DNA of 64,000 nucleotides from Tubulanus polymorphus (lineage: Eukaryota > Nemertea > Palaeonemertea > Tubulaniformes > Tubulanidae), in contig NC_134034.1 of NCBI RefSeq assembly GCF_964204645.1, forward strand, positions 3,380,072-3,444,071, given 5' to 3'. Positions 18,998-58,400 of the stretch are shown here, in pieces (the stretch's first letter is position 1; every line of letters begins with the position of its first letter). A program made the position numbers and the translations under genes. Below the pieces are notes generated by a model, which ran no database searches, was not told the DNA's origin, and saw only the letters and a list, made by a program, of their open reading frames with translations.

Positions 18998-20845
18998 CTG
19001 CGCTTCGTAGCAGTTAGGCCCGCGTGGTTAAAAAAAACTCGATGCAATTAAACCGAGCTGTCCAAGTCGAGATATCTGTAAACTCTAATTTTTATACCTC
19101 GAAGTACGTCATCGAATTCCCCCTGCCGGGATATCGAAGAATTAATCGTTATGAGATCGAAAACTTAAAGTTTACGCTAATCGTTTCTCATGTCGAGACG
19201 TAACTCCATGATAGAATCGTTATGCCTAATCGCTATCGAAAGTTGATGTTCACAGAGTTGGTCGAGACATTCATTTTCGGTCCAATTGTTGATGCAGCGG
19301 ATATTCCTTGCGGAATATATAGTCGAAACGTCGGATAAACTACTGTCTCCACTTATATTTTCGGACCGTCTTTCGTCGCTTTTGTGGGATTCTCCCTACA
19401 TTATCGTCACAACACGGATATAGCGTTTATTATACTTTTGAAGTTAACCAGATCGAGCGTATGTTTAGTGAAGGCTATCTGTTCCTAACTCGCTTACACG
19501 AGAGAGACACTGAACAATCCAGATCCAGGAGTTGAGAAACCGGTTTTGTATACAGCGTACGTGTTCTCGGCTGAGCTACGTGTATTAAAAAGTAATTGTC
19601 CGAACTCTGTATAACACAAAACTGTAACGAGTATAGAAATGACAAGCTCGGACAAAATGACCCAGCTCGAAAACTAAGCTTTGAATACTGAATATTCACT
19701 TTTGTCCGCACATCTGTTATATGCCGGCACGTTGGATTACCATTTTAAAACAGATTCCGAATAAATCCCTTTAAAAAAGGGGCTGACTCAAATACCGATA
19801 CGTCCGAATGCCTCCGATTTCACTCTTTTATCCGGACTCTCCTCTCTGGTGACGTGGTTTAGTTGCCGCGGAGTGGGGCCGTGCGGATAAGAAGACACGT
19901 TCAGCATAGCATTAACCGGCAACCAGTCTAGACTCAGAATTCGATACGCAACTAGCCTAAGTGATTGTACAGTCGTTCTCCAATGGGGGACACGCAAAAC
20001 CAGCTATCCCGCCAGATGGCGTAACGAGCAGTAGGTTGTCAGTCAACATGAGTTCATTTTCAATGCACTTTGACCGCCCTGAATCCATATACTCAGCACA
20101 AGACTCCAGCAAATATACAATTCTTTCATTCTTCTTATCAGATTTCGATAAAGTTTCCATAAATAATTGATTCATTTAAGAGAAAAGTTCATTTAGTCTT
20201 AATTGAATTGTAAAATAGATCGAACGCGGACGACCAGCTATCTACTAGCGAACCTGGCGGATCCTCGCCTGCCAAAGGTAGATTGCCACAGTAGTACTGC
20301 GGGTACCCCATTGCGCTCTTTTTCACCGAAATCACCGGATCGTAATCTGATCATAATCTGATAGAAGAGTCGGCCCGAGGCGAGCTTAAGTGATAGCAAG
20401 TAGGTCAGTCGCGTGTGACTTGCATGATTTCGGAGTTCGCCTTTGGTTTACCCAAGGTCTCGGACCCCGTTTCGTGTGTTTCCCTCTCCGTCGAACTTGT
20501 ATAATTTTACAACCGGAATGGTTCGTGGTTTTTCAAGGCTCCCCGGTCGCCAACAACCTCCCCAGAAAGGAAAGTATATTTGATTCAGTCGCAGATAATA
20601 GTGGAGTTCTCTAACAAATGATAAATAGCTACGTAAGACTTCATTAGTACCGTGAGGATTTCTTTTGTGTGAATTCACCAATTCACCAATATGTGTGCGG
20701 AGACAGATGCACAATTATTGTCTGAATGAAATCTCGTTGAGAACGTTGGATTTCGATTCAATTTATTTAAGATTTTGATATGAACAATAAATATCACTGT
20801 AAAGTTTCTATTTTAGACTACCAGCGGTGCTAGAAATGATTCAAG
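18998..20845. other. Intergenic; repeat R1 copy C and GPCR leader
   Basis: R1 copy C occupies about 19981-20312. From about 20420 the sequence resembles the region upstream of the second GPCR (22500-22700; shared ATTTTACAACCG and nearby blocks), so the duplication includes several hundred bases of upstream DNA. A TTTCTATTTTAG acceptor-like site at 20805-20816 may end a leader intron. Confidence 0.5.
19981..20312 (+). repeat. Interspersed repeat family R1, copy C
   Basis: It has the CCAGCTATCCCGCCAGATGG start and the ACTAGCGAACCTGGCGGATC end of the family, spaced about as in copy A. Confidence 0.65.
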
Positions 20846-21799
20846 ATGAATCTTACTTCGGACGTGTTGACTGTAAGTCGACCATACAACAGTTACATCA
20901 TTATCATGTCTTTAGTGAACAGATCCGGAACCTATCGCAATGTATCCGTGGTCATTCTGCTTATAATGTTCCTATTAGGAGCCTTCGGAAATTCGGCTAC
21001 TATCCTGATAATGACAAGTCGTAGATTTCGCCGTCTATCTTACGCTAACTATCTGATCGTTTTGTCTACTAGTGATTTCATGTACTGCGTTGTATTTACG
21101 CTGATGCCTGTTTTACAGTTTGTTCTTTTGCTTTCAAATATCGGTCCGATAATCTTGGTGAATTCACTGATCAGTTGTCAAATATTTGATTCTATAATGG
21201 ATATTATGGGCGCCTGCAGTTCGTGGTTTATAGTAGCGATATCTTTAGAACGCGTGGCGGTTGTGCTCTTCCCGTTCACATCTCGTTTGATATGTACACC
21301 GAGATTCGCCCGATGCGCTATTGCAATCGTTTTCGTAATGAACGTACTTGTAAATGGTATACATCCAATAGTAATTATGCGTTTTTCTAATAGTTTCGGT
21401 TGTTACTATTCGTTTTCCGATCAGTTCCAACGCTTTATGACGTATGTTATATACGTTTTCATCCTGCCATTTACTTTAATAATCATATCGAATACTGTTA
21501 TTATAGTTGTGTTATTCAGAGGTTCAAAAACGATTTCGTCCGATTGGAAAACTACAAAAGCAAAACGTACCACAATAATGCTCGTAACAGTTTCACTCGC
21601 GTTTGCTATATTTACAATTCCAACCACTATTATTGTATTATTACCAATCGCAACCGCACAGAAAGCTGTTTTATATGAGATATTCACTCAATTGCAAATG
21701 AGTAATTACGCTATTAATTTCTACATATATCTTTTACTGGGACGAGAAATTCGTGAATATTTCTGTTCAAAATTCTGCTTTAGAAAATCGGCGAAATAA
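20846..21799 (+). CDS. Rhodopsin-like GPCR, tandem copy 1
   Basis: A single-exon frame of 317 residues with seven hydrophobic segments. A TGA lies in frame three codons upstream of the ATG, so the start is fixed. The N-terminus has NLT and NRS glycosylation sites. TM1 has GNSATILI, the TM3 end has LERVAVVLFPF in place of DRY, and TM7 has NFYIY in place of NPxxY. The NFxIY form resembles FMRFamide-receptor-type peptide receptors, but the ligand is unknown. The tandem partner at 22909-23853 is nearly identical from TM1 to the end of TM3, and the relative at 47379-48395 is more distant. An overlapping frame from 20827 is a shadow. Confidence 0.9.
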   Translation: MNLTSDVLTVSRPYNSYIIIMSLVNRSGTYRNVSVVILLIMFLLGAFGNSATILIMTSRRFRRLSYANYLIVLSTSDFMYCVVFTLMPVLQFVLLLSNIGPIILVNSLISCQIFDSIMDIMGACSSWFIVAISLERVAVVLFPFTSRLICTPRFARCAIAIVFVMNVLVNGIHPIVIMRFSNSFGCYYSFSDQFQRFMTYVIYVFILPFTLIIISNTVIIVVLFRGSKTISSDWKTTKAKRTTIMLVTVSLAFAIFTIPTTIIVLLPIATAQKAVLYEIFTQLQMSNYAINFYIYLLLGREIREYFCSKFCFRKSAK

Positions 21800-22500: not shown

Positions 22501-22908
22501 GTCCTTTGTTTTACCAAAGTTCTCTCTGGTGGACGCTGTTTTCACGTGTTTTCCTCTCTACAGAATCGGTGTGATTTTACAACCGACCTGTGCGCTGATG
22601 TTTTGATTTGTATTTCCTTTATAAAAATCTCCCCAGAAAGTCTATATATTTGACTTAGTCACAATAGCGGTGGAGTAACATTTCTTCGCTGAATATGAAT
22701 AGCTATCATGAATAAGACCTCATTAATATCTGCGAGGACTTGGTTTGCGTGAAATTAACTAATCAATATGTGCGGAGACGGTCAGTGCAAACAGTACGAC
22801 AGGGCGTCGCTGAATCGATGGACTCTTTTCTAAATGAAACGTTGGATATCGATTCAATTTTCACACCGCACGGATTCAACTCACATAGCGCTATAGAGTT
22901 GCATCACG

Positions 22909-23853
22909 ATGAATTCTACTGGGATGCAGATTGTCGGTCGACCTTACAACAGTTACATCATTATCATGTCTTTAGTAAACAGATCCGGAACCTATCGCAA
23001 TGTATCCATGGTCATTCTCATTATTATGTTCCTTTTAGGAGCCTTCGGAAATTCGGCTACTATCCTGATAATGACAAGTCGTAGATTTCGCCGTTTATCT
23101 TACGCTAACTATCTGATCGTTTTGTCTACTAGTGATTTCATGTACTGCGTTGTATTTACGCTGATGCCTGTTTTACAGTTTGTTCTTTTGCTTCCAAATA
23201 TCGGTCCGATAATCTTGGTGAATTCACTGATCAGTTGTCAAATATTTGATTCTATAATGGATATTATGGGCGCCTGCAGTTCGTGGTTTATAGTAGCGAT
23301 ATCTTTAGAACGCGTGGCGGTTGTGCTCTTCCCGTTCACATCTCGTTTGATATGTACACCAAGATTTGCCCGAAGCGCCATTTTCATTATTTCCATGATG
23401 AACATACTGGTAAATGGTATTTATCCAATAGTAATTATGCGTTTTTCTAATAGTTTCGGCTGCTACTACGATTATTTTGACCAGTTTCTGCGTTTTATGA
23501 CGTTCGTCATATACGTTTTTATAGTGCCTTTAACTTTGATAATCACAGCAAATTCTGTGATAGTAGTTCAGTTGTTCAGGGGTACAAAAATGGTTTCGTC
23601 TGATCAGAAAACTACTAAAGCAAAACGTACCACAATAATGCTTGTGACAGTTTCGTTTGCATTTGCTATCTTTACAATTCCAACAACTATTATTGTATTA
23701 TTACCAATCGCAACAGCTCAGAAAGAGGTTCTATTCGAAATACTCACTCAATTGCAAATGAGTAATTATGCCATCAACTTTTACATATATCTTTTACTGG
23801 GACGAGAAATCCGTGATTATTTCTGTTCGAAGTTCTGTTCAGAAAATCAGTGA
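22909..23853 (+). CDS. Rhodopsin-like GPCR, tandem copy 2
   Basis: A single-exon frame of 314 residues in the same orientation as copy 1. The N-terminus MNST differs from copy 1, but the sequence from RPYNSYIIIMS to the CTPRFAR motif after TM3 differs at only about three residues. Divergence then rises through TM4-TM5 and the third loop. TM3 ends in LERVAVVLFPF and TM7 has NFYIY. A second open frame (22740-23084) overlaps the start; it is kept open by the same DNA as in copy 1 but does not encode receptor sequence. Probably a plasma-membrane peptide-type receptor; the ligand is unknown. Confidence 0.9.
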   Translation: MNSTGMQIVGRPYNSYIIIMSLVNRSGTYRNVSMVILIIMFLLGAFGNSATILIMTSRRFRRLSYANYLIVLSTSDFMYCVVFTLMPVLQFVLLLPNIGPIILVNSLISCQIFDSIMDIMGACSSWFIVAISLERVAVVLFPFTSRLICTPRFARSAIFIISMMNILVNGIYPIVIMRFSNSFGCYYDYFDQFLRFMTFVIYVFIVPLTLIITANSVIVVQLFRGTKMVSSDQKTTKAKRTTIMLVTVSFAFAIFTIPTTIIVLLPIATAQKEVLFEILTQLQMSNYAINFYIYLLLGREIRDYFCSKFCSENQ

Positions 23854-34680: not shown

Positions 34681-34862
34681 CTGGCGAACACTGAGAAAAT
34701 TAATGCGTCATTCACCACCGCACGCAGCGCAAATTATGATTATACGTTTGGAAAACATGAGCAAGAACTGATCGGCGGAAAGAGGCGTGGGAAACCGTAC
34801 AGTCTCGCGGCAGTGTTTAACAGTGTAGGAGACACGGCACGTGAAGCGCATTAAAATCAAAG

Positions 34863-35903
34863 ATGTCAAAAACGATGACTACGAACGTAACGGATGGCGC
34901 GATGATTTGCTGCGGTAAATTCTGTGACGGTTCGGGTACGATCTTAACCTACAGTACGATAATGATACTAGCCCGCGCCGCGCTTTATTCGATCGGTGTC
35001 GTTTCTAACTGTCTCGCCTTCGTCGTTCTTCGCCTGATGAGGCTGAAAAGTAGCAGCATTGTATATTTGGAAATGCTGGCCGCGGCCGATACCGTCAGCT
35101 GTCTGACCGGGTTGTTCGGGCGCGAGTTGGTGATGTTCTCGAAGCGCTTCCCGCTGGAAATCATCCGCTACGATCGCGTTTACCAACAGTATTACGGCCG
35201 TGTTTATTTCTACGTGGACGCCGCATTCCAGGCGACCACGACCACCGGTCCGTGGCTGCTGTTCGCGTTGAGTCTAGACCGCTACGTAGCTATCAGATAC
35301 CCGCTGTCCGCCAGGAGCATCTGCACGATTCGGAACGCGACTCGCATTTCCGTCGCGATTTGGATTCTGACGTTTATTTTCGACTTGCCGACGATGTGGG
35401 ATCACGAAACGTACGACCAGGCGCCCGATCGTCCTTGTAGCTTTATCGCGCAAAGGAAATTCCTACTTCTCAACACGAAATATGCGATCTACTACGATTT
35501 CGTGTTCGGTAAAGTTGTGTTGAAGTTCATCCCGGGTTTGGTCGTATTCGGTTGTAACGTTCACATGGCGACGTTGGTCCGGGTGGCCGCTCGCGTGCGT
35601 AACAAACTTCAACAAATAGACGCAACCGAAGATTCGACGAATAGCAAACAAGGACGACAAATCACCCTGACGATATTAGCTTTGAATTTGATTTTTATGG
35701 TTGATTACGGGATGGCTTTGATCAACACGATATTACCGGCGATTTTACCCAAAGGGACGAAATATCGCCCGTATCATTCGGGTCAGTTATTTCACGCTAT
35801 TAATTCTATGATCAATTTATTCGTTTATCTAGGAATTCGTAAAGGTTTCGCAGAAACGCTCGTTTGGTTTCTGAGTTGTCACCGTTTAGGAAACCGATTG
35901 TAG
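34863..35903 (+). CDS. Rhodopsin-like GPCR with intact DRY
   Basis: A single-exon frame of 346 residues, ATG at AAAGATGTC. The N-terminus has an NVT site and a CC...C cluster. Seven hydrophobic segments are present; TM3 ends LSLDRYVAIRYPL with the normal DRY, followed by SICTIRNATR. TM7 has NLFVY instead of NPxxY, and the tail ends in a CH...GNRL segment. The CT-R-AR pattern after TM3 resembles that of the tandem receptors at 20846 and 22909, hinting at a shared family. Codon third positions are much richer in G and C than in those copies. Probably a peptide-type receptor; ligand unknown. Confidence 0.9.
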   Translation: MSKTMTTNVTDGAMICCGKFCDGSGTILTYSTIMILARAALYSIGVVSNCLAFVVLRLMRLKSSSIVYLEMLAAADTVSCLTGLFGRELVMFSKRFPLEIIRYDRVYQQYYGRVYFYVDAAFQATTTTGPWLLFALSLDRYVAIRYPLSARSICTIRNATRISVAIWILTFIFDLPTMWDHETYDQAPDRPCSFIAQRKFLLLNTKYAIYYDFVFGKVVLKFIPGLVVFGCNVHMATLVRVAARVRNKLQQIDATEDSTNSKQGRQITLTILALNLIFMVDYGMALINTILPAILPKGTKYRPYHSGQLFHAINSMINLFVYLGIRKGFAETLVWFLSCHRLGNRL

Positions 35904-38424: not shown

Positions 38425-41400
38425 ATGACGCGCTGTCTCTTAACGTTATTACTCATTCTACTAGTGGAACTGTCGACGGTTCAGACGACTGATTGGATCT
38501 CTACCGATCAACCGTCTGTAACTGTCAGTTCACGGTGTAACAATACGTGGTTTTCGCTCGATTCTACGTCCGGTTACATCCTTTCACCGAATTATCCGTC
38601 GTTTACGCGCGGTGTTGAATGTCATTGGTTCATCAACAGCTCTTTACCGGGTACCTTCCATATCCAAGTTTACTACGACATCGAGCCGTCTATATTCTGT
38701 AGAGATAACTATCTTCACATCAGCGATTCTGATAACTTACTGTGCGGAGGTGGAAAACAATTAGATATTTACCGCAGTAATTCATTATCGTTGATGTTTA
38801 AGAGTGATGTAGATGATGTTGTGAAAGGAAGTCGAGTTTATGTATATTATCGTTTGGAAGAAGAACTCGATCATCTGAAAACTGTTCACGACTGTAGGTC
38901 AAACAAAATAAAACGATTACAAACTTTTAAAACTGGTTATAGATTTGCCGTCGATATGGATAGCTATTGTCGCCTCCTCAAGCTCGAGTGGTCCGTGATA
39001 CCAGAGGGTTTTGGCATGAATTTGACTTTTGAGAAAATAGATTTTAGATTATTACAACCAGGTTTACGTACGACCGTTCAAATTTATGACGGATGGAACA
39101 CAAGTGAACCTATATTTGATATACGGGAACAAACCGGACATCCACCCAGCTCTATTTACACAAAAACTAACAAAGCCTTCATTACTTTTTCAACAAAACA
39201 ACCCGGTTTATCTCTCGAAACTAATTTATCAGTAAGATTGTACAGAATATCAGATTGGAATATTTCTAATCCATCGATTCCGATCTATAAAAACGAATCC
39301 GGAGTGCTCATTCCTGGTATAAAGCCGCATGTTATAACTCAGTCTAAACGCTTATACTGCTGGTCTATCACAGCTGAAATACTGCAGTACGTCGTCTTCA
39401 ACTGGACACGTGATCTCGTCACTTCCGGTGACGTCATCGGTGTCTATAAACTGGAAGGTTTAACGCTTGTCGGAACTGATATTTTACTCGGTAAAAACTA
39501 CCTGGAATCTTTAAGCGTAAAATCTGACGGATTTCTCGTGATATTGTGTTTACTGTTATCAGAGAATTCGGTCGGGAATTCGACATCGATCGACTACAGA
39601 ATAGAATTATTGAGGGAAACAGACATCGAAGTGGAAAATAAAAAAGTGAGTTAAAAGCATGAAAATGCTTTGGAATGCGCATGTCGTAAATGCATCCTAT
39701 CTATTTGAGTCTATGTCAATTAATATGTATTAAATCCGTACACTACATACTTGGATTTAATACTGATGATTTGATTTTATTTGAATCTATTGTAGGTAAG
39801 AATTACCCATAGAGTGACATTTTTCCATCTGTTCCCCAGATATTCGAAACGGAAATTGACGTATCGCATCAGTAGATTTGCACTCAGCTCGAAAGTCGAC
39901 ATCTATGAGGATAAATTAGAATTCACAGTTTTATCAGAGAATTGTGAGAGAGCCGGATTTTATATATATGACGGTGGTAATTTTACAGCTAGACGCTACG
40001 GTCCGTATTGTCCCGCTGGTCGGGGAAACTATGGTCGATCTATCGTCAGTCTGATTACATCGGGAGGACCGGTCACTGTAGTAGCATACGTTAACAACAG
40101 AGATGATATATTAATGACTATCGAGTCGCCGGATGCCCTCATGTTTGTCCCGACGGAGTGCGACGGGTATGTTCTACGGGAAGGAGAACGTCATATCACT
40201 ATGACGTCACATTGTCTCGTGATCACACCAGCAAATCGACGCCTACCGATAGAAAAAATAAACGTATTTTCAGGTCATGAATATCAAATCGACAAATGTC
40301 ATCGTAAATCTATGAATCCCTGTTCAAAGATAAGTCTCGATAGTCACGTGCTGAATACCAGTCTCGTGTTAAACCACTTGGAATCATTACGAACTAAATA
40401 TGAATTCTGGAGGTCAGCACTAATGATTGTATTACGACGTAAATGTCAGAAATTAAAGAAAGGTCAACCGAATTCAGGTTTTAGAGGTGGGGGCACAGAT
40501 AATGGATATTGTGGACTTGTCCAATCATTGAACTTCCCAGGATTACCAACCTCTTCACCCGCCAGATTCTTTGAATTTACTAATCCTACTGACAAAAGTA
40601 TCAATCATTACATCAGATTCCTGGTGAAATTCATTGGACAAACATCGTGCACTAAATCTCTTACTTACCGCGTTAGGGAATCAATATTACTAACACAAAT
40701 TATCAAAATATTTGACGATCCAAACGATCCATTTTCAAAGTTTACGGAAACCCGTCATATAACAAGAATATGTGAAAATAACGCAGTTCCGGGACTTATA
40801 TTGTACAGTTTACTCGGGTATGACTTGTATTTTGAGCTGTCAACTCATTATAGTCCGATATTTCAAATTCAATACACTTTAGAACAATCGCCTTTACTGG
40901 AACATCGAATTAATGGCTGCCGATCAGATTTTTTAGATTCTGGGGTTTCGTGTATCAGATACATCAAACATGAACCTATGAATTGGGAGACCGCTGAAAA
41001 TTACTGTCGACAGAAATATGGAGGACATCTTCTCAGTATCAACTCTCAACATGAAATGAAGGCCGTTAAAAAGCTGTTCGCTACAAAACTGCTTCATGAG
41101 GCATATTCACAAACGGGGCTTATTGTGATGATTGGATTAAAATGGCAGGTAAAATACGATCCATTTATCAAATCGTCATCTCATAGAAACTTCAAAACAA
41201 TGATTAAATAATCCTCTAATAATCTTAAAGGAATATTCACTATTGAATGTATAAATAGTGTTTGTTTGTCTTTTTTAAAGGAGTCCAGTGGTTATTACTC
41301 GTGGTCTGATGGTAAACCGTTAAGTTACACAGAGTGGTTTAAACCTGTTGTTAATGAAACAATACCAGATGTTATTTTAGGATTGATATCTCCGTTAAAA

Positions 41401-44400
41401 ACACAACCGATAAATGACGTCAATATGCCGTGCACGGCGATGATACTGAATAATCCACGAGGATCGGCGAACTGGGTTCGATTCCCGTGTCAAATCATAC
41501 AAACGCATACGACATTCATTTGTGAAACAGAAAGAAACGACTCTTACGCATCTTCGCAAAACGATACAACTGAAATAAAACGGAACAACTTCGAACTATT
41601 TAACTCGTGTCTAAAAGGATGGATTCATATAGAAGCGCATTGCTATCAGATACTTACAGCCTGGCAAACGCTCCACGCTAAAGGTCTAACAATCCCGACA
41701 GCAAAGGAAATGTGTGTTAGAATCGGTGGCGACATAGGTAAAATAACAACTAATTTTGAAATTCAGTATTTGATAAATGTTTTCAACTATCAGCATCAAT
41801 ATGGCGCTATACTGACAAATCTTACAATCGGAAAAATTATGGCATTGAAACCAAAAGTATTTAGAGATTGGATAACAAATATTACAACAGTGAAATGGTC
41901 AATGAATGTCTTCGATAATGTCACAGATGTAGCGCATTCCGTGCTATGTTCCTATAATGTAGCTGGTGAAGTGTTATCTCCTGTGAGCGGATGTAAATCG
42001 TGGCAGTTTCAATGTAACGATCAAAGATGTATCAGCGACCATCGCGTATGTGATACCAGAAACGACTGTCAACACGGTGAAGATGAACTCGATTGTTCGA
42101 GTATAAACTCACGCAGTCAATTCCAGTGTTCAGACGAACTGAGAGTTATTTCAGTCAGTAGTTTCTGTGATTTTGTACGAGATTGCGCTGACGGATCAGA
42201 TGAGAACTCGTGCTATCATACTTCATGTTCCTCTGAACAATTTACGTGTGACAATGGACAATGTGTGAGTAAATATAAACGATGTGATGGTCTGGTTGAT
42301 TGCAAAGATAAATCCGATGAGATCGGCTGCTCTTCGGACAAATGCAACGGGTTTTTGTGTGTAAATGGTGAATGTATCAGTTCTCTGTTGTATCGGGATG
42401 GTGTTGTAGATTGTGGCGGGGACCTCGAAGAAGATGAAATATTAACGAGCAACATAACAATTAAACCAAAAGTTCACTGCACTACAGAGAACTACTGCAC
42501 GACCAATTTCACTTCACTCTGTACAGAATCAGATGAACAAAGATGTTCATTCAATTCTCCTCATTGTTATGCGAGAAAAGAAAGATGTATTTTAGAAAGA
42601 ATGCCGACAGGTTTTCCTGTTTGTAGAAGACTCGAACATTTACTGCATTGTAATGAGTTTGAATGTCCAGCTGTTACAGTGAAATGTCCATCGTCTTACT
42701 GTATACCGATTAGACACGTGTGCGATGGTCGATCAGATTGTCCTCATTCAGAAGATGAAATGAATTGTGAAACGTTTTCGTGTCCAGGAATGTTTAAATG
42801 CGGTGATGAACACAGATGTATTCCTCAGTTGGAAGTTTGCGATGGCGTCGTCAATTGCAAACATAACTCGGATGACGAGGCTTACTGTGACGTCATTTGT
42901 CCAAACTATTGTAAATGTCAAGGTCGTTTCATCAATTGCGAAAATGCCTTTTTATCAGATATTACCGGCATTTTTGCCGAGTCGACTCGAGTTTTGATTT
43001 TATCAAATAACCAACTTCGATTCAATGAATCAACATTTTCCCCTTATCTATACCTTTTCATACTCATTATTTCACGTAATGAGTTATCTGACATTGTCTC
43101 CAACGCGTTTTCTAATCTACGCAATCTAAATACACTAGATCTGTCGCATAATCGTCTAGTATCACTACATGTTGATACATTCACCGGTTTAAACAATTTA
43201 AAGCAACTTTTACTCGCTGGAAATCCGCTGAGATATTTGAACGACGGAAGCTTCAATGGTTTGACGTCACTACCGGTGATCGATCTGCACGGCCTCTCTA
43301 TATCGGTTCTTACTCGTAACGTATTTCGAGGCCTACCAGCGCTGAAATACTTGAACATCAGCGATAACGCAATCAATTCAATATCCAGATACGCGTTTTC
43401 TGGGTTGAGTTCACTGGGAGTTCTTGATTTTACCAACAATTCTCGGATGATCTCTGTGGAAAATAATATCTTCGATAATCTGACGTCTTTGTATTTTCTC
43501 GCTTCGGACGCGTATAAATTCTGTTGTATGGCGCCGAATATTGACCGGTGTCTCCCGGATCCTGATCAATTCTCATCGTGTTCAGACCTCATTGAGAACA
43601 CTGTTCTCAGAGCTGTTGTCTGGATCATCGCTTGTTTTACTTGCGTTTCCAATATTACAGTTATTCTATTTCGTTTTAGGTCGATTCTAGTTTCACCGGA
43701 AACGCAAAATAAATCGTCGGATATCCTCATCATTAATATCGCGCTTTGTGATTTCCTGATGTCCGTTTATCTGTTTCTGATCGCTGGAACTGATTACGTT
43801 TATAACGGTGTCTATTTTCTGAATTCTGAAACTTGGACTCGTAGTTCACTATGCAGCGTAGCCGGAATTGTTGTGACGATATCTTGCGAAGGCTCTTTAA
43901 CATTTCTCCTTCTCCTCACGCGTTTCAGATATTCAAATATCCTCAATCCGCTTTCAGGTAACCCGCTTTTATCCTCAAAAATCGTTTTGATACTCTCCTG
44001 TTTATGCTGGATATTTTTGAGTTTGATCGCCTTTCTGCCGCTGTCTCGGTCGTCTTATTTCGGTGACAGTTTCTACGGTAGCACGGGTATCTGTTTACCT
44101 ATGAATTTGATATCTATAGATGTCAATGGTTGGCAATATTCGTTCGCTATATTCGCTGTATTAAATGCGATCATTCTCACTCTGATAATGATGTCGTACG
44201 TGCAGATGTACAAGTATGTATCCGGAAGCAGGTCCGGTTCGGGACGAGCTGATCCTACAGAACTCGTTCTAGCTCGACGCAGTTTGGTAATCAATTTGTG
44301 TAATTTATTTTGCTGGTTACCGTTAATAATCGTTCAATTCTGCGCCGTATTCTCGGTCGAGATACCGAACCAGGTCGCCGCTTGGCTTGCCGTTCTTTTC

Positions 44401-44508
44401 TTGCCGATTAACTCAACACTGAACCCACTTCTTTACACTATTCTAACTATTGATATGAAATCCATACGAGCTCGAAATAAACGCAGAAAACAACAACCAA
44501 TCAAATGA
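38425..44508 (+). CDS. Composite CUB-like / C-type lectin / LDLa / LRR G-protein-coupled receptor (GRL101-like)
   Basis: Exons 38425-39645, 39796-41148 and 41281-44508 all join at phase 0 and encode 1933 residues. The start is the ATG in CACCATGAC, giving a signal peptide at once; an in-frame ATG at 38368 is less likely. In order: a clear CUB domain (about 37-140), further CUB-like modules to about 500, a C-type lectin domain (about 780-940; CRSDF...WSDGKPLSYTEW...FICE) split by intron 2, a degenerate second lectin domain (968-1083), LDLa repeats (about 1095-1130, 1137-1169, 1174-1208, weak 1213-1241, 1320-1354, 1359-1394), an LRR cap (CPNYCKCQ), LRRs (1428-1588), a hinge with DAYKFCC and a 7TM region (1636-1918) ending NPLLY. 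LDLa plus LRR plus 7TM is the layout of snail GRL101 and relaxin-type receptors; CUB and lectin modules are additions. Probably a surface receptor for a large ligand or glycan. Confidence 0.93.
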
Positions 44509-46230: not shown

Positions 46231-47378
46231 TGTCAGCTTTTCATTAAATGACAAATGATGCATTCTTTGGGTTAAATTTTTCCCAAATACACTCCCGGCT
46301 CATACTAGTCAATCCCAGGCTAATAATTTACATAATTCAATCGTGTTTTCATAAGTAGCACAGACAGCGACTGAAGCTGGCAGGAACAAATACCCCAGAT
46401 AAATCTGTTCCCTTGGTCTTATTGATTTGAATTCGGTATAGAATTGCATTTTCTGAAATTTGCTCAACAAAACAGTATTGGATTGGATTTGCTGTTTAAC
46501 CTTTTTCAATAAAGTAATATTGAATTGCATTTGATTTTTTATGCAGAATAATATTTTATTGAATTTGCAGTTTGAGCACATGGCTAATTAGCATATCAAG
46601 GTCATCCATCCGATTTGAGAAAGAGCTATTTTTCCCGGACTTTGCACAATTGTCAATGATATTTTCTGTATTGCAAATAAAAATATTCCTCCCAAAAACC
46701 AAATCAACTAAAGCTTTCACAGAATTCGATCTTGAAATATAATTTTAGATCTTAAAATGAAACCCGGAAGTAAAACGGTAGACGATACCGCGGGTTCACG
46801 TGACACCTGCTGATCTCTGCGGCTAAGCCAATCATCTCGAAATCGACGCTATGTTGCATCATCGAAAAAAAAAGATTGTTGAGTATGTTGCATTCAGTTA
46901 ATAAAGATCCCTCTCCATCTCCCTTACCTGGGCCGTCTCTGAACCAAAATTTTAGACTCAAGTTATTCGACCCTACAATCGATATAGGAATTAAACACAT
47001 CAGCATTTATCTAAAAGATTGTTTGGTAATAAGGAAAGACTATTCTTTAAGGACGTTAACAACTGCCCCTGAGAACTCCCGACTACTGTCCTGTGTATGG
47101 TGGTTGCTGGATAACGAACTGATGCTGTTTTACGTGCATTTTCTCTGTTTAGAACCGATAGATATTTTCCAACCTATTCAGACGTTTCGCTTTAGAATAT
47201 TTCACCATTTACAATGCATTGTGAATATTGATATTTGATTTTGTTACATTTATATATAACACAAGAATTAGTTTTCACCAAATCTTAATAAATATATTGT
47301 GTTAGGTTTCTGAGGATTGATTTTTCATTTGTCGCGAACAATAACTTGTGAGCTTCAATATATATATATAAGAGATGC
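46231..47378. other. Intergenic, no gene supported
   Basis: An open frame at 46876-47238 has no recognisable domain. Low-complexity repeats of a CAGTATTGGATTG type occur near 46440-46560. A run of TA (47359-47370) lies just before the next receptor. Confidence 0.45.
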
Positions 47379-48395
47379 ATGTATATTTTGAATCAGACTA
47401 TGGATACAGTCGGTCCATCCCTTCAACAGTTAATCATGCTCATGAATTCAACTCAGACTCCTCAGATTGGTCGAACTTATTGTAGTTACATCGTGCTAAT
47501 GTCAGTGGTAAATAGATCTGGAATCTACTGTTCAATGTCGCTGTTCGTTCTGCCTTCCGTATTCCTTTTAGGAGTCTTCGGAAATTCGGCGACATTCCTG
47601 ATAATGACAAGTCGCAGATTCCGCGGTTTATCTTACGCTAACTATCTGATCGTTTTGTCGCTAAGTGATTTCGTGTATTGCACCAGTTTTACGCTGATGC
47701 CTGTTTTACAGTTCGTTCTCCTGCACTTCAAAACAAGTCCGATATTCATCATGAACTCGCTGGCCAGTTGTAAAATCTACGAGTTTCTGATGACGCTTGC
47801 GTGCAGCAATAGTTCATGGTTAATAGTGGCGGTATCTCTAGAACGAGCGGCAGTTGTGCTCTTCCCGCTGACATCTCGTTTGATATGTACACCCAGATTC
47901 GCTAGATTTACTACTTTGATAATTACTGCAGGGAATGCACTGGTTCTATATTTCACGCCTGTTTTGTCGATACATTTCACCGACGAATTTTTCGGATGTT
48001 ATCACGAATTACTCGATGAAATAAAGCTTTTCGTCATAATCGTCGTCTACGTTTACCTTTCGCCGTTGATTTTGATTCTGACATTGAATTGCGTTATAAT
48101 CGTTCAGTTGTTCAAAGGTTCGAAACTGGTTTCGTCCGATCAGAAAACAACGAAATCTAAACGAACAACGATAATGTTGGTAACAGTTTCACTCGAATTT
48201 GCGATATTTACACTTCCTTCGACTATAACTGCGTTGTTACCGATCTCATCGGAACAAAAACATTCGTTGTACGACATTTTCGCGCAGTTTCAAATGTGTA
48301 ACTTCGTCGTGAATTTCTACATGTATCTTTTGCTGGGACGAGAAATTCGTGAATATTTCTTCTTGAAAATCCGCGGAAGAAATTCAGTCAAATAA
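47379..48395 (+). CDS. Rhodopsin-like GPCR, third member of the 20846/22909 group
   Basis: A single-exon frame of 338 residues. Its N-terminus is longer than in the tandem pair; an internal MNST at residue 22 matches the start of copy 2, so the shorter start is possible. Shared blocks are MTSRRFRGLSYANYLIVLS, RLICTPRFAR, SSDQKTTK-KRTTIMLVTVSL and LLLGREIREYF. TM3 ends LERAAVVLFPL (no DRY) and TM7 has NFYMY (no proline). It lies 23.5 kb from its closest relatives with unrelated genes between, so it is an older copy. Confidence 0.9.
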   Translation: MYILNQTMDTVGPSLQQLIMLMNSTQTPQIGRTYCSYIVLMSVVNRSGIYCSMSLFVLPSVFLLGVFGNSATFLIMTSRRFRGLSYANYLIVLSLSDFVYCTSFTLMPVLQFVLLHFKTSPIFIMNSLASCKIYEFLMTLACSNSSWLIVAVSLERAAVVLFPLTSRLICTPRFARFTTLIITAGNALVLYFTPVLSIHFTDEFFGCYHELLDEIKLFVIIVVYVYLSPLILILTLNCVIIVQLFKGSKLVSSDQKTTKSKRTTIMLVTVSLEFAIFTLPSTITALLPISSEQKHSLYDIFAQFQMCNFVVNFYMYLLLGREIREYFFLKIRGRNSVK

Positions 48396-49219: not shown

Positions 49220-49837
49220 GAATAACTGATATCATTCAGATGCGAAATAGTACGATTAATTTCGGAAATCTGTGGTTGGTACCGTATTTCTTTCTGCGGC
49301 GAGGCTGCGCACTTTTGTACCCTGGGTTCATTCAGAATGGGCAAAATATCCTACAAGGAAAAAATCGACGGTAACAACCGATAACAAGTAAAATCTAATA
49401 TACCCGTTTAAAGATCATGATTACATCTTTATTGACGATTTATTTTGGCTGATCATCTCACATTAGTCTAGAATCGACACGTCAAACTGTCTATATCGTA
49501 CAACCATGTCTGCCGGTACATTCAGCAGATGCGCGCTAATCTAATTCACTATCGATATATGGAAACTCAAAATAACTTTATTGGAATTAACTTGGAATTA
49601 TACAATTCATTTTATGATATTAATCGTCGACGATATTAAGCAATTATTTTTCAAGATGTCGATACACCTTTAAGTTAGTTTTCTTGTTCACACTGCGCTC
49701 GGAAAAATTGTAACATTTCTGCAGCAATTAATCTAAACCTGAAATATTATTCTTTGTCGATATACGTATGTTTATTTATATATATATTCCGGTAAGCTTA
49801 ATTGGGTAACGTAATACGTAACGGTGCAGTATCACAG

Positions 49838-50854
49838 ATGTCTAACGTAACCGAAGCGCGGTGCTACAACACTCCGTCATTCTATAAGCACCAGGCTAAT
49901 TACCTGTACGGTATCGGGCCGATCGGAGTCGTTGGTACGGTCCTGAACATCATCTGCGCCCTGGTTCTTTATCGTTTGCAGACTCACTCGGCAGCGTACG
50001 CGACGCTATTCATTTTATCTCTCGCCGATATAGGGGTTTCGATATCGACGTTTCTCTATCACGACATGGTTACTCTATCGAAACTGATCTATTACGCAGC
50101 GGCAATAGTATTCGAAGCCGACTTCGACGACGGCGCGTTCGTCATGTACGTTTTCGCCAACAACTGCTTGCAGCTGTTTTGGAGATGGCGAAATCTTTTA
50201 ACGTTACTAATCTCTTTCGATCGTTTCATTCACGTGTACGCCCCTCTATGGTCGCGCAGAAATTGGAACGTTAAACACTGCATAATCTACGCCGTTTTGA
50301 CATTTCTGAGCTTTTTGGGATTCCATCTGTTCTACGGATTTTACGCTTTCGTACGTGTCCCGGTCACAAACCCTTGTTATCGCGGTAAAGTCTTGGAAAA
50401 GAAAGTTCGAATGTTACGAAGGGCAGATCTGATATTTGTCATCAATATGATTCACCTTTACATTCCTTCAGCTTGTGTTACGATGTTTACCGTTCTACTC
50501 ATTTGCAAGTTAGTAGATTACTCAAAACCCAAAGAAAAAGAAATAGCAAAGGCGCATGGTAAAAAGTCAATCGATGTCCAGAGTACTTCGATGATAATTT
50601 CAGCCGCCATCTTATTCCTATTTTGCAATTGTGCGCAAATGGCGATTGATATGATAGATCGATTTCCTAATATCCTCGGCTCCACTAAACCGAGGGATAA
50701 TGCAGGTTGGAGAATATTTTGGACGGACATATACTTGCTCAATGAGTACTCGAATGCGATTAATTCCGCTATCAATTTCATCGTATATTGCGTAGTGAGT
50801 AAGAGATTCCGCTCCGCCGTATCTTGTCCTAAAATACTTAATCGCGCAGCCTGA
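49838..50854 (+). CDS. Rhodopsin-like GPCR, divergent
   Basis: 338 residues from the first ATG (the open frame extends upstream without an ATG). An NVT site lies near the start. Seven hydrophobic segments are present: TM1 GTVLNIICALVLY, TM3 end ISFDRFIHVYAPL (DRF for DRY), TM6 SAAILFLFCNCAQM, TM7 NAINSAINFIVYCVVSKRFR (NFIVY for NPxxY). Between TM2 and TM3 there is an acidic segment (EADFDDG). The NFxxYC-KRFR ending is typical of peptide receptors of the FMRFamide-receptor type, but the family is not certain. It does not belong to the 20846/22909/47379 group. Confidence 0.88.
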   Translation: MSNVTEARCYNTPSFYKHQANYLYGIGPIGVVGTVLNIICALVLYRLQTHSAAYATLFILSLADIGVSISTFLYHDMVTLSKLIYYAAAIVFEADFDDGAFVMYVFANNCLQLFWRWRNLLTLLISFDRFIHVYAPLWSRRNWNVKHCIIYAVLTFLSFLGFHLFYGFYAFVRVPVTNPCYRGKVLEKKVRMLRRADLIFVINMIHLYIPSACVTMFTVLLICKLVDYSKPKEKEIAKAHGKKSIDVQSTSMIISAAILFLFCNCAQMAIDMIDRFPNILGSTKPRDNAGWRIFWTDIYLLNEYSNAINSAINFIVYCVVSKRFRSAVSCPKILNRAA

Positions 50855-52428: not shown

Positions 52429-55400
52429 TCATATATTGATTACCTTGTCGAGTTCGGTTTTGGTTTCTTCCTCCAGTTTACGAATATCCTCGATTGTCAG
52501 TCCGTGCCACGAGTCTGTCCAGCAGTGAACCCTTCGGAAAAATTGGGTAAATCCCCTAAACAATGCCTGTTAATTAAAGAAAAGCGAAAGGATGATAGAT
52601 CTTAATGTAGTGTATTTAGTGAAACCCTCCGTGGCGCTGACCTACATTTTCGTAATCTCAGCGAGACTGATTACGCAATTGAAATATATAATGACACATC
52701 AGCGCCACCTGTCGTATGATAACAGCATAACTATAGAAATTGACTGAGGGCCACCCGCTGCTTGATTTCGGCAAGACTAATCATGAGAAATTCAACACAA
52801 ACTGTTGGAAAACACAATCGTTGGTAAGATTGTGGCGATTGTGAATTACGTGGTTAAAATGCGATTAATGAGTTTTGCTTTCGATCGCGTTCAACGGGCA
52901 GCTCTGTCTGGTATGAACAGAAACGGCTCTATTCCACAGATCGTGAAACTTACTTTCTTTATTAGAGATTCAACTTTCGGTTGCAATCCGAACCATTTGA
53001 ACTTGTACGAGCACAGTTTGTACACACACATCGTCGGCATGGAATCCTGCAAATCAAAATATGAACAAAATTCCCATCGTTTTCATTTCTTGTGTTATTC
53101 TCCCCCATGAAACTACTGATTCACTTCACGGATATTTCGCGAGAGAAATAACACTATGAATCTACGTATTTGAACAGGAAATACTACAATATTTACAATA
53201 TATCGATAATGACGAATTTTCCATGATTGGCTGGCTGACTAATAAGTACATAAGTTAGCTAGCTATAGAACCAAAATGTGCATTTATGCCGGTTTTAAAG
53301 TTGTTTAATTATCCATAAAACTGAAAGAGAGTCAGAATTAGTCCATGTTTCATTCATTTCGACCCGGTTATCAAATTCCTAACTGAAGGAGGAGCTGGGG
53401 TCGGATTCTGAGATTATTTCAAAACGGGACATCTTCGGGCGTTAGATTCGCAACATCGCCGACTCGATTGTGCGTCAGAGAGTTTCGCCATCAAAAAGTA
53501 AAATATCAACGTCGTTAATAAATAAAAATCCACAGTAGATTTGTGGAAAAAGTTTATTTTCTAACCGGTTCGAGGTTAATCGCAAACCTCATCTACAGAG
53601 TAATTAAAATAATAAAAATAAGGTTTAGAATTAACCTCGAAACCGTTAGAAAACAAACTTTTTCTACAAATCTACTGTGGGTCGTTATTCGTTAAACATA
53701 CTGAAATTTATATCAGTTCACTATAGTCATCAATGTCATTATCGGTGGACAGACTCCGCAAATATTCGATACTTGTAGATGTACAATCGAACGCACCGCT
53801 AAATGTCACCGTAACGCCGACCGTACAGGGGTGACGTGTACACGCAATTCCGGTCAGGTGTATTGACAACTGGTCACCTGAAGTTTCAACCAGCTCACTA
53901 TAGAATCAGGGATAAAGATAAACAGTTTTTGAAATAAGAAAAATAAACAACGTTTTTCCATTTTAGCATTGCAAAGCTTTTAAAGGTCGCTAAGGTAGGC
54001 ATCCGATAATAGTGTGTGAGCGAATAAGGATAAAAAGGAGAAGAGTAAGAAGGAAACTGATTCCAGCGTTTGAGAGAACTCTTAGAGAAAGTAAAATAAG
54101 TGTGCACGTGATCATCGACTCATTATGATTCGAATGCATTTTTGGAGAAGGCCATTTTGCATGATGTGAAGGGTTCGAAAGTGAACGGATCTAAGGTTAA
54201 TTACGAAAGGCCTCTTATAATGGTTTCTTTTCTCTTTCGTCGTCACATGGGACGTGGCAATGTAATCCGATATGCTTTGGCGTGGTCACTTGACAAGTGA
54301 TACCTAACCTACTCACCGAATTTCCAATAGATGGCAAACTAGGAGTTTTTTCAAATGAAGACGTGACCTACTTTTGACCTCAAGATTTGGGTCACAGATT
54401 ACTCCACATTCAAACTTTGTATACCAAACATTTTCTGATAGCTCTTACTACTATTGGCAGATGTTAGTTTTATGGGTCTTTATTCATCGAAGACGTATTC
54501 GGATCGATTTTGAAATTAAACTCAACACAAATAATGATTTATTCCCCACCTTGAATTCATAATCGGCAAAATAGTCCCACGCAAAAGGGAAATATCAAAG
54601 TTCGCCTTCGACGGAAAGTGATGTCGCGTCACTAAAAGCCGTCGGTCAAGCTGGGCGTGGCGTGCAGATGATCAGTAGTTGACCGCATTACTTCCGGCTG
54701 AAGATTCGTTTCGTTTCGGCTCTGAATCTGTCGTTCGTTAAACAATACAGAAAGTAATTGACGCTCGAGGCTAGAGGGGTCAGCACGTCGGTACCGAATT
54801 TCGATATGGTTTCAATGACTGCGGCTACGTTTGAATTCGGCGGCGTGAGTCTTACGAATTTCACTAGTAGGTTTATATACGGTTTCAGCGAAGTGGCCGA
54901 CTGCAAAACGAGGAACGAAACGACGACGGCGATTGCCATTTTAGTGGCTTCGCGGTCGATGTTTCGGTGTTTGGAATAACGCGTCAGATTCGCGCGATTT
55001 TTGCCGACGTTGCGAAGCACGAAAATGAGAATCGCATCGAGCGCGAGTAGCAACAAAACCGGTAGTACATTCGTGAACAGAGACGTAAACATCGATTGGG
55101 CTTTGCGATAGAGTTTTGCAGTTGGTGATAACTTTGTTCTGTGCAATATTCTGACGCGAATCCCCGAGCATACTTCCGTGGCGTGACCAAAATTGCCAAC
55201 ACGTAACATCAAAGCAATCCCGAAAAAAGCGAATACAACGTATTTCAGGAATATACACGCGGATATACGTGGTTTAGTTATCTGGGCCTGCGCGAACAGC
55301 GGGAAAGCGATGCCTATTACCCGTTCGGTCGCTATCAGCACCGTCATCCAGTTCCTCGTCAGTTTAATCGAATTGTCCATTAAATGCATCGCGAAATAAA

Positions 55401-58400
55401 GCTCGTAAAAACCGACGAATCGTTCGTTTTTCCGCGGATTTCGTTCGAGATAGCGTCGAAGCGTCGCTCCGTAGACCGCGACGTTCAGCAGATGACGTAG
55501 GAACTCGCGAAAGAACTTCGAAACGAGAAACGAAATATCGGCGACGGCTAACGCTTTCAGCAGGAAAATCGACCTGTGTTGCGACGACTGACGTTTCAGG
55601 ATCGTTATGTTCAGACTATTCAGGAAAATACCGACAACGATGATAATCGGCAGAAGGATGAGTCTTCGTACAAAAGCGCTCGAAATTTGAAGTTCATTAC
55701 CGCATAATCGACCGGTATTGTTCGACATAGCTGTTACGCGGACAATAGGTAATTTGTCGTGGACGCAACACGGGGAATCGGAATACATTCGCCTAATATA
55801 ATATGCGTTTCCCATCAAAGTGAAAATAGGCAGATCATATAAACATATATTGTCTCGGGGGTATGATTAAACCCGCGCAATAGGAAGGAATAGATTCAGT
55901 TTAATGAAGTTGCAGATTTTAGGAGGAAAATCAACAGTCTAGGCAAACCTCGGTTATCGTAGTTAGTCGACCATAGTCGAACTAAATGAAACCGAATGTC
56001 CGTTAGTCGGAACTATGGTCCGGAAATGGTCGACCACAGGATTCAGCGCGGTCGCTGTATTTCCGACCCATTTCCAAGATGGGCGACACTGTGAAACACG
56101 TTACGACCGAATTACAGTGCGTTCGGTTATAGTTCCGACCATTAGTCGACTAGCTACGGAAACCGAAGTTGGCCCTAGTAGCTACGTATACGTGGGGGTT
56201 AGATATGTTCGCAAACGGACACAACACATTGTCCTTTAAACCCGACGTGCACGACGCAAGACAACACGGAACAATGAGAGTGAGAAATGTTTCTGAGCGT
56301 TTCTTCGTGTCGTTTGCGTTTTAGGGAAACGGCAAACATAGTTTCGGGAACATTCTGGGATCAAACAAATTTGATTCCCTATTTCTATGTTTCCGTGTTC
56401 CTTGCGTCGTGTGCGTTGGCCTTTACAATTCTCAGTCCAAGACATCTGACCATTGGGGCGCACTCTTATTTTATTTTTGATAAATTTTGATAATCTTTTT
56501 TTTGAGAGGATGTCATCCTCGCTTGCCAGGGGTCCGGTATCACTCCCGAACTCGCTGCCACCAGCCCCCTGGCCTCACGAAGCGTGATTTCATTACTGGC
56601 GCTGTTGCGCATGACGTCATATATCGATTTGCGAAATACTTCCTTGTTCAGTGAAACGTTCGCTGATTGGTCCATTTAACGACTCCAACGACTCGTGAGG
56701 TCAAGATGTTCGGGGAACAGTTTTAGCGTAGTGGGTTCGAATCCCTTGACGGGTGAAGATGAGAGGATGTGTGCTACGTTATTTATAAATTAGGGCTAGA
56801 CTGGTTGCCGGTCAATTCAATTCAATTCAATTATATATCGATATATTCAAAAGCAAAATCATTTCACTGATCCTTGCTGTCATATGATTTATAATATATT
56901 TCGTAATACAACTGTGTTATTTTCAAGGCGTCAATACAATTCCAAAGTTAGTTTTCTTGTTATTGTTAATCATTACGTTTGACCATAAATAGGACGTCAA
57001 CATTTGATAAAAACACGTAGCGCTGTATAACCTAGAATAAACAAGCGTACTATAAGAGGGTGCATTTCTGGTACCGGTAATACTCACCTGCCAACCTGTG
57101 GCTAACGGACCGCGTCCAGTCGTCTTAGAATGATAAAAAGTTGGATCCTCTTCTTTCTTATAATCCTGAAAATTAAAGCCACATTCAGTAACGGGCTATT
57201 TCAATTCAAACTAAATTGTATTTCAAAGAGCCCCTGCACAATGTGCAGGACAAAACAGGTACCGATATGTGCAAGGCGATTGTTTGGTTTTAGAGAATTC
57301 TAGTTGTGGAGATTAAGGATCCGCCGTGTGTGAGGATCCGACACTCAGGTGTCGTCAGTAGCTATTCGGTTATCCGTGTTTATTAATTTCCCTTCTACAT
57401 TTCGATTTAAATCGACTCTTTAAGATAATATCTATACTATACGCTATACTTGAAGAGTGCATTAAATGGGTTCGTTCGATGATATTTAAAATCGGGAGCC
57501 TAAAGTTCCAGTTTAAAGTTAAATGATGCAAGTGAACTAGCTCTACAAGTCCTGTATTCAGGTGGGAAAGCGCTGATGTTATACCAAGTGCCCTGGGTGA
57601 AATGAAAATTGCATGAACTTACATTTGGTTGAACCAAGCTATTGTTGGCAATATCGATGTCGACTATTTCTCTTTTGCCGATGAATTCATCTGGTATTTC
57701 GAAGACCTACAAAATTGTTATAAAAAAATGGGGATGTTTAAGTATAGGCGAATGAAGATAACTCCAAAATCAATTCAAATAGGACTTGCTTAGCTGATAA
57801 GACCGAAATCAAGGGACACAAACAAATCACCAGAATCGGCTCAAAATAATGACTGCCCATTTGCACGAATAACTCATCGGCTCAAGGGACAGTAGCCGCG
57901 ATCACACGAGCATTTTTGGCACGGCCTAATTTGGCCCGGAACAACTGTTTACACGGGTGCCAAATGGGCCCCAGCCTGTTTGGCCCGGGCCAAATTTGGC
58001 CCGACCAAAAAGTCGGACCAGGCCCGAGCCATCTATGACAAATTATATTGCGTTTGAATTGCAACTGGCACCGGAAATGATCCACTTCGCTTTGTTTGAG
58101 CATTGTTTAGTATCGAGTGAATGGCCCGAGCCTGATCCGTGCTAATTTGGCCCGGACCAAATCGTCTCCGTGTGATCGCGGCTATTGATTGGCTCGAAAT
58201 TAAACTCAAACAACTGACTAGTCAGCTACAAAAGAAATCTAGCGGGTTCAAGCGTGTGATCTGTGTGCATTTGTGGCCAGCACACAGATCACATTGTTCA
58301 TTGGGGTTTGGTCCAGGACTCGCGAGATTTTCAAACAACACGGAAGTAACGTGTAATAAATGATGACTTGAATTGCATGACTACCTACCACCCCTCATTA

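Follow-up and report, generated by a model that had tools for sequence, protein, structure and literature searches.

Type C leucine-rich repeat-containing G-protein-coupled receptors (LGRs) are known chiefly as hormone receptors. Human RXFP1 carries one LDLa repeat and is not known to have a CUB or lectin domain. In the available text of the respective reports, cnidarian LGRs carry several LDLa repeats (PMC4079206), a starfish GRL101-like gene enriched in sensory tentacles has six (PMC6267866), and bivalve proteins place CUB beside C-type lectin domains, G-protein-coupled receptors being unmentioned there (PMC10140915). The SudRes2 schistosome-resistance region of the snail Biomphalaria sudanica is described as holding clustered GRL101-like genes with C-type lectin (CTL), LDL, leucine-rich repeat (LRR) and seven-transmembrane (7TM) segments (PMC12297450). 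Trichoplax adhaerens is credited with 41 LGRs outside the canonical types (PMC9545775), so that large LGR expansions as such are already known. Here we analyse a window of 64,000 nucleotides from the nemertean Tubulanus polymorphus (contig NC_134034.1, positions 3,380,072 to 3,444,071 of the forward strand; coordinates below are those of the window). Positions 38425 to 44508 hold what looks like one composite three-exon receptor gene, in which CUB, C-type-lectin-like, LDLa and LRR modules precede a 7TM domain. The gene appears to belong to a family of roughly two to three hundred relatives in the same genome, many of them in tandem clusters.

The three exons lie on the forward strand at 38425..39645, 39796..41148 and 41281..44508, and phase 0 splicing joins them into a frame of 1933 residues with a single stop at its end. 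Exon 1 contains the ATG, a hydrophobic N-terminus that is signal-peptide-like as judged by eye, a CUB domain, a weak second CUB unit and a remainder without domain match. Intron 1 (39646..39795, +; GTGAGT...TTGTAG) is of phase 0, and its donor at 39645 agrees with the consensus in 8 of 9 places. Exon 2 comprises ~370 residues without domain match followed by the N-terminal half of a C-type-lectin-like domain (CTLD1), which is interrupted by the phase 0 intron 2 (41149..41280, +). The C-terminal half of CTLD1 is supplied by exon 3, together with a possible second lectin-like domain (CTLD2), six LDLa repeats, LRRs, a hinge, the 7TM domain and the stop codon. The Pfam Lectin_C score rises from 25.5 bits for the exon 2 part alone to 43.0 bits when the exon 2 and exon 3 halves are joined, the match then covering profile positions 2-106 of 107.

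The relation between front and back exons was followed in 30 exon-3 loci fetched from the genome, namely the window's own copy and 29 others. A relative of exon 2 lies upstream on the same strand in all 30, and the donor of intron 2 reads CAG/GTA at the exon border in all 30, the window copy being included in both counts. The acceptor is found at the homologous place in 25 of the 30 loci, three bases off in two and not placed in three; the intron measures 79-465 bp in the 27 loci measured. In 22 of the 30 loci exon 2 is almost complete and free of stops; the remaining loci are damaged or cut by the locus end. Exon 1 lies upstream of exon 2 in all seven copies fetched without prior knowledge of exon 1 (58-90% identity), and also in two further copies selected for an already-known CUB match. 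The first-pass annotation, made from the letters of the window, had proposed three phase 0 exons giving 1933 residues. The open frames with one terminal stop, the domain completed by joining and the linkage among paralogues bear this out, with splicing supported from sequence rather than from RNA. The same annotation held that orthologues consistently split into two genes would speak against the model; among paralogues, on which the question was put, front and back exons stay linked.

Several genome searches bear on the size of the family. As a degenerate DNA pattern, the hinge signature DAxKFCC has 285 genome matches, some of them in divergent LGRs, as against 0 for the reversed control; a second degenerate DNA pattern tried for counting gave 385 matches versus 246 in its control and was dropped. 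With the 7TM domain and hinge as query there are at least 127 matches, all of 489 bits or more (127 of 500 candidates scored); 107 of these listed matches are stop-free, and 93 of the 107 also lie in frames of 1000 residues or more. The CUB query yields at least 150 matches, all of 162 bits or more (150 of 341 candidates scored), and exon 3 at least 43 at 71% identity or more, window included, of which 40 are nearly whole-exon (43 of 794 candidates scored). Taken together, two 7TM searches give at least 203 distinct places, ~15 of them divergent LGRs, and the total reaches at least 237 once the first 100 listed hinge places are added. On contig C6 the spacings repeat (22549 and 12708 bp, then 22548 and 12708 bp), which points to a recent segmental or assembly duplication, and places on the small contigs C22, C32 and C60 could be haplotype duplicates. 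Because of these possible duplicates the size is stated as roughly two to three hundred. The first-pass annotation had recognized the composite single gene and missed the family, for which the genome is needed.

The same searches connect the CUB module to the receptor end. For 83 of the 150 listed CUB matches, one of the 127 listed 7TM matches follows downstream in the same orientation no more than 12 kb away (no more than 7.3 kb in 81 cases); a pairing with the opposite strand is seen for none. The remaining 67 could stem from 7TM copies outside the 127 listed, a point checked on C6. Hinges are listed completely for that contig, and 53 of its 54 CUB matches are followed on the same strand, at a distance of 5.0-7.2 kb, by a hinge; when placement was randomized 200 times, such pairs averaged 2.1 and never exceeded 7. 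A distant member on contig C1 (L038), 34% identical over exon 3, possesses six LDLa repeats, LRRs and a 7TM domain, a CUB match (2.3e-12) and a lectin domain interrupted at about the same point. Since this member keeps the same order, the module plan looks older than the expansion.

We also note about a dozen divergent LGR-like 7TM places, 36-51% identical to the C1 member (G000:C7:17891054, C7:2296758, C4:848794, C5:7763005, C7:19447264 and others). A conventional single-copy GRL101 or relaxin-type receptor may be among them.

The back end combines an LRR ectodomain, a Cys-rich hinge and a rhodopsin-class 7TM domain, the features of an LGR. Six LDLa repeats with a Cys-rich insert after the fourth (41986..42894, +; Pfam Ldl_recept_a 7.5e-34, 6 stretches), whose acidic calcium-site residues are largely conserved in 24 copies, are followed by LRRs with a Cys-rich cap (42895..43491, +; LRR_8 1.6e-23), a DAYKFCC hinge alignable to that of RXFP1 (43507..43590, +) and the 7TM domain (43591..44445, +; 7tm_1 9.1e-20). 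Against solved structures, hinge and 7TM together score 174.7 bits with RXFP1 (PDB 7tmw), 106.4 with LHCGR, 81.9 with FSHR, 81 with TSHR and 46 with LGR4, and the 7TM domain scores 154 with RXFP1, 82 with LHCGR and 38 with LGR4. Hinge and 7TM are thus nearer to RXFP than to type A or B receptors, and LDLa repeats stand ahead of the LRRs, as in type C LGRs. This comparison, made by score among solved structures and not from a tree, supports a type C (relaxin/GRL101-like) back end. The six LDLa repeats fit type C2 (GRL101-like), the subtype being assigned by repeat count and not by comparison with a named GRL101 sequence.

The CWLP and NPLLY motifs are intact in all 24 aligned copies of the expanded clade. 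The D/ERY motif reads FRY in the window gene, and its acidic residue is replaced in all the aligned copies, by F in 22 of 24 and by Q in 2 (window included); the position holds H in L039, Q in L040 and D in the distant member L038. Class A receptors that lose this acidic residue often show raised basal activity, and in the expanded clade its loss may bring raised basal signalling or altered coupling. The first-pass annotation had read six LDLa repeats, LRRs, an LGR-type DAYKFCC hinge and a 7TM domain with NPLLY, and had placed them near relaxin/GRL101-type receptors; Pfam, the RXFP1 alignment and the motif columns agree with it, and all five of the Pfam families that it proposed to search (CUB, Lectin_C, Ldl_recept_a, LRR_8, 7tm_1) are matched.

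Six LDLa repeats, LRRs and 7TM domain share one exon in the window gene (41281..44508) and its paralogues; according to the available text of Veenstra, such repeats usually each occupy their own single exon (PMC8286064). A retroposed ancestor for the single exon 3 would not explain intron 2 within the lectin domain. In the L040 copy (G000:C9:2873700-2880500) a frame of 1461 residues continues through intron 2, so that a form with read-through or a retained intron may exist there. Long frames of 1566 to 1585 residues occur as well among the 7TM and hinge matches listed.

At the front of the protein, the CUB domain at 38557..38829 (+) reaches 30.7 bits alone (Pfam 4.3e-7; cut-off 21.4), and exon 1 as a whole reaches 6e-11 as the sum of two stretches. 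A CUB match is present in 8 of 8 exon 1 family copies (Pfam, E up to 1), and a profile search of the PDB with the exon 1 CUB matched cubilin and MASP. The second stretch, at 38986..39201 (+), remains below the Pfam cut-off (17.7 bits, E 0.0047, profile positions 28-99 of 110); CUB scores in other loci are 47.7 bits (L041), 33.5 bits (L039) and 19.4 bits (L040, below the cut-off). About 640 residues separate the first CUB from the lectin domain, of which ~70 form the weak second unit and the remainder has no Pfam match. The three exon 2 segments give zero Pfam matches at E up to 10, and Pfam CUB is not matched in the four segments beyond the second unit. A small CUB profile, made from the window family plus five CUB sequences, was aligned by hhalign with five segments of exons 1 and 2. 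The probabilities are 4.1, 0.1, 3.2, 0.1 and 49.8, the last over 9 residues only, with reversed controls at 0.6 or below; the value for the second CUB at 38986..39201 is only 4.1. For one front segment the predicted fold, of low confidence, is all-beta and finds its best matches in other beta-sandwiches, a generic likeness only.

An array of several CUB units is accordingly not claimed, Pfam having found only the first of the five segments (17.7 bits) and hhalign standing at 4.1 for that segment and 49.8 for the last. The evidence stands at one clear CUB and one probable further unit. Diverged CUB units may make up the rest of the stretch, although the profile comparison gives no sign of it. 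The CUB-like modules of the first-pass annotation therefore hold for the first unit (30.7 bits), whereas the second is weak and below the cut-off; its 17.7 bits bring the observation slightly nearer to the plural of that claim.

Lectin_C is matched in exon 2 alone (Pfam, 2.3e-5) and in 23 of 23 exon 2 family copies (E up to 1); the two halves of CTLD1 lie at 40912..41148 and 41281..41526 (+). A classical sugar-binding C-type lectin is recognized by its calcium-site EPN/QPD and WND motifs. Neither is present in CTLD1 of the 24 aligned copies, although Lectin_C is matched: the EPN/QPD place reads QPIND, and W-V-R-F-P-C stands at the WND place, where W, R, F, P and C are identical in 24 of 24. 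A possible degenerate second CTLD at 41608..41952 (+) is unproven; Lectin_C is not matched there at E up to 10, and UL45 (C-type-lectin-like) appears at E 0.16, below its own cut-off. Of the one good and one worn lectin domain claimed earlier, the good one is upheld at 43.0 bits and the worn one is left without a Lectin_C match. Glycan recognition, also suggested earlier, finds no support in a CTLD1 that lacks the WND calcium-site motif. For complement-like recognition there is a single clear CUB domain, a module that is common in non-complement proteins.

Selection was examined in exons 2 and 3 of 20 intact copies, chosen for intactness from the 30 fetched. The pooled ratio of nonsynonymous to synonymous substitution rates (dN/dS) is 0.46, 0.51 and 0.49 in the three exon 2 parts without domain match and 0.44 in the possible second lectin domain. 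Lower values are seen for the lectin domain (0.22-0.27), LDLa (0.20-0.27), LRR (0.29), hinge (0.15) and 7TM domain (0.18). The 7TM domain is under strong purifying selection and more constrained than the front (0.18 versus about 0.5). No region of these exons has a pooled value above 1; single pairs above 1 exist, as in 11 of 190 pairs for the first part of exon 2. In a parsimony site test, 129 codons are negatively selected at p<0.05. For 16 of 18 copies the nearest relative is not the same from one gene region to another, a pattern suggestive of exchange among copies; weak signal could produce it too.

We favour a lineage-expanded family of composite type C LGRs whose likeliest role is innate (pathogen or non-self) recognition, and assign this reading a probability of about 0.4. 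It is favoured because of the family size, the constant back with a faster front, and the snail precedent. In such a receptor the CUB/lectin-like front would bind an external or cell-surface ligand, the LDLa-LRR-hinge segment would relay binding to the 7TM domain as its homologue does in RXFP1, and a G protein would respond to the 7TM domain, as the intact CWxP and NPxxY motifs suggest. The design would amount to a variable front on a constant signalling back. It is a more tentative thought that the family constitutes an undescribed germline system, in which 200-300 composite receptors with a faster CUB/lectin-like front and an RXFP-like 7TM domain, shaped by tandem duplication and exchange, would wire innate or self/non-self recognition to G proteins.

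A number of observations weigh against innate recognition. The role is proposed from sequence and precedent and not from expression, ligand or signalling, and in the precedent itself the validated variant lies in a neighbouring Zn-RING-IAP gene and not in the GRL101 gene, according to the available text (PMC12297450). The parsimony site test finds 1 positively selected codon at p<0.05 (1481 sites; those with at least three changes tested), which is fewer than chance would give and marks the test as low-powered. Diversifying selection is seen in many immune receptor families. The missing WND and EPN motifs make classical calcium-dependent sugar binding by CTLD1 unlikely, nor is normal G-protein coupling certain when the acidic DRY residue is missing. 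Taken by itself, the expansion would suit chemosensation just as well, and further short 7TM genes lie in the window. The gene model is a separate matter. In the one pair compared, a sister copy on the same contig (C10), the exons are 94.4, 88.4 and 95.7% identical and intron 1 is 70.6%, a drop that speaks for splicing, but intron 2 is 91.7%; intron 2 is thus no less conserved than exon 2 and does not stand out in this pair. This last point, and a gene model without RNA behind it, would suit a gene-model artefact in which exons 1 and 2 belong to a different gene from exon 3. Such an artefact is very improbable, as the lectin domain is completed only when exons 2 and 3 are joined and the exons are linked in 30 of 30 loci, with CUB and hinge linked in 53 of 54 cases on C6. 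On these same counts a fusion through assembly error, or a pair of separate genes, was set aside.

Chemosensation is a serious rival, though a somewhat doubtful one: the family would sense cues from the environment or from conspecifics, and its front would catch odorants that are macromolecular or carried by lipoproteins. Chemosensation typically goes with large tandem 7TM families and other tandem 7tm_1 genes adjoin the window gene, whereas an ectodomain of ~1,630 residues is unusual for odorant receptors. The sensory-tentacle enrichment of the GRL101-like gene, reported in crown-of-thorns starfish, points the same way as the tandem arrays (PMC6267866). A role as receptor for an insulin/IGF/relaxin-like peptide hormone, of the kind proposed for GRL101 and here with a front that would serve as co-receptor module, would agree with a hinge and 7TM domain closest to RXFP1 among solved structures, and Veenstra argues in the available text that GRL101 is an IGF receptor; the same text gives GRL101 as single copy in the ambulacrarians studied (PMC8286064). 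A hormone system would hardly call for hundreds of copies, and this role seems unlikely. Allorecognition or gamete/self recognition, in which many germline variants would bind like or partner molecules between cells, could draw on the family size (285 hinge matches), the divergence weighted to the front and the nearest relatives that change in 16 of 18 copies. Positive selection is not detected, however, and the case is built on sequence and not on population or expression data, so that we hold it to be quite improbable. Innate recognition remains the reading that we prefer.

Other genes lie in the window. A single-frame LRR-TIR protein of Toll-like-receptor type (6621..8936, -; LRR_8 1.7e-34, TIR_2 4.5e-7) is found ~30 kb from the composite gene. 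The composite gene is flanked on both sides by short 7tm_1 receptors, three in all and related to one another (20840..21799, 22897..23853 and 47352..48395, +; 89% and 60% identity). Further 7TM frames occur at 34845..35903 (+), 49802..50854 (+) and 54688..55866 (-), the latter two below the 7tm_1 cut-off and the last with a better match to Srw than to 7tm_1. Two Laminin_G_3 frames (553..1416 and 14793..15497, +) are mutually 54% identical, and a frame of 458 residues at 16886..18262 (-) has a weak Condensation-domain match (4.6e-4, below the cut-off).

Comparison with known systems reveals shared parts in differing combinations. Human RXFP1, the best hinge and 7TM match among solved structures, has E at the DRY position where the window family has F, Q or H. 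The GRL101 of Lymnaea stagnalis, a type C2 LGR, resembles the window gene in having several LDLa repeats, LRRs and a type C 7TM domain and differs in having twelve LDLa and six LRR (PMC8286064). In the available text of two papers on GRL101 and relaxin-type receptors the word "lectin" is absent and "cub" occurs in the references only, in the first of the two papers once, as part of a DOI (PMC8286064, PMC11863921), and that of a further paper holds nothing more on a CUB/lectin/LGR architecture (PMC11521371). The type C LGRs of Nematostella and Trichoplax, like the window family, join CUB, LDL, LRR, a type C hinge and a 7TM domain; they differ in that Fibronectin type II is present and, in the available text, a lectin domain is unmentioned, and they number one in N. 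vectensis and three in T. adhaerens (PMC9545775). Within the literature searched, with subscription papers, supplements and protein databases outside it, an LGR that bears both CUB and lectin is not reported, nor is a type C LGR expansion of ~200-300.

The SudRes2 GRL101-like receptors, as far as the available text describes them, share with the window family the union of CTL, LDL, LRR and 7TM segments in one protein, the tandem paralogues and a suggested recognition role. The snail set comprises 12 cluster genes (two incomplete) and six elsewhere with GRL101, CTL and LDL, in contrast to ~200-300 here, and "cub" has 0 occurrences in the main text of that paper, whereas the window family has CUB (PMC12297450). 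If innate recognition is the role of the family, a type C LGR core would have been recruited for recognition on the scale of odorant or immune receptor repertoires, and the snail SudRes2 resistance locus, whose genes share a similar plan, would gain a wider context.

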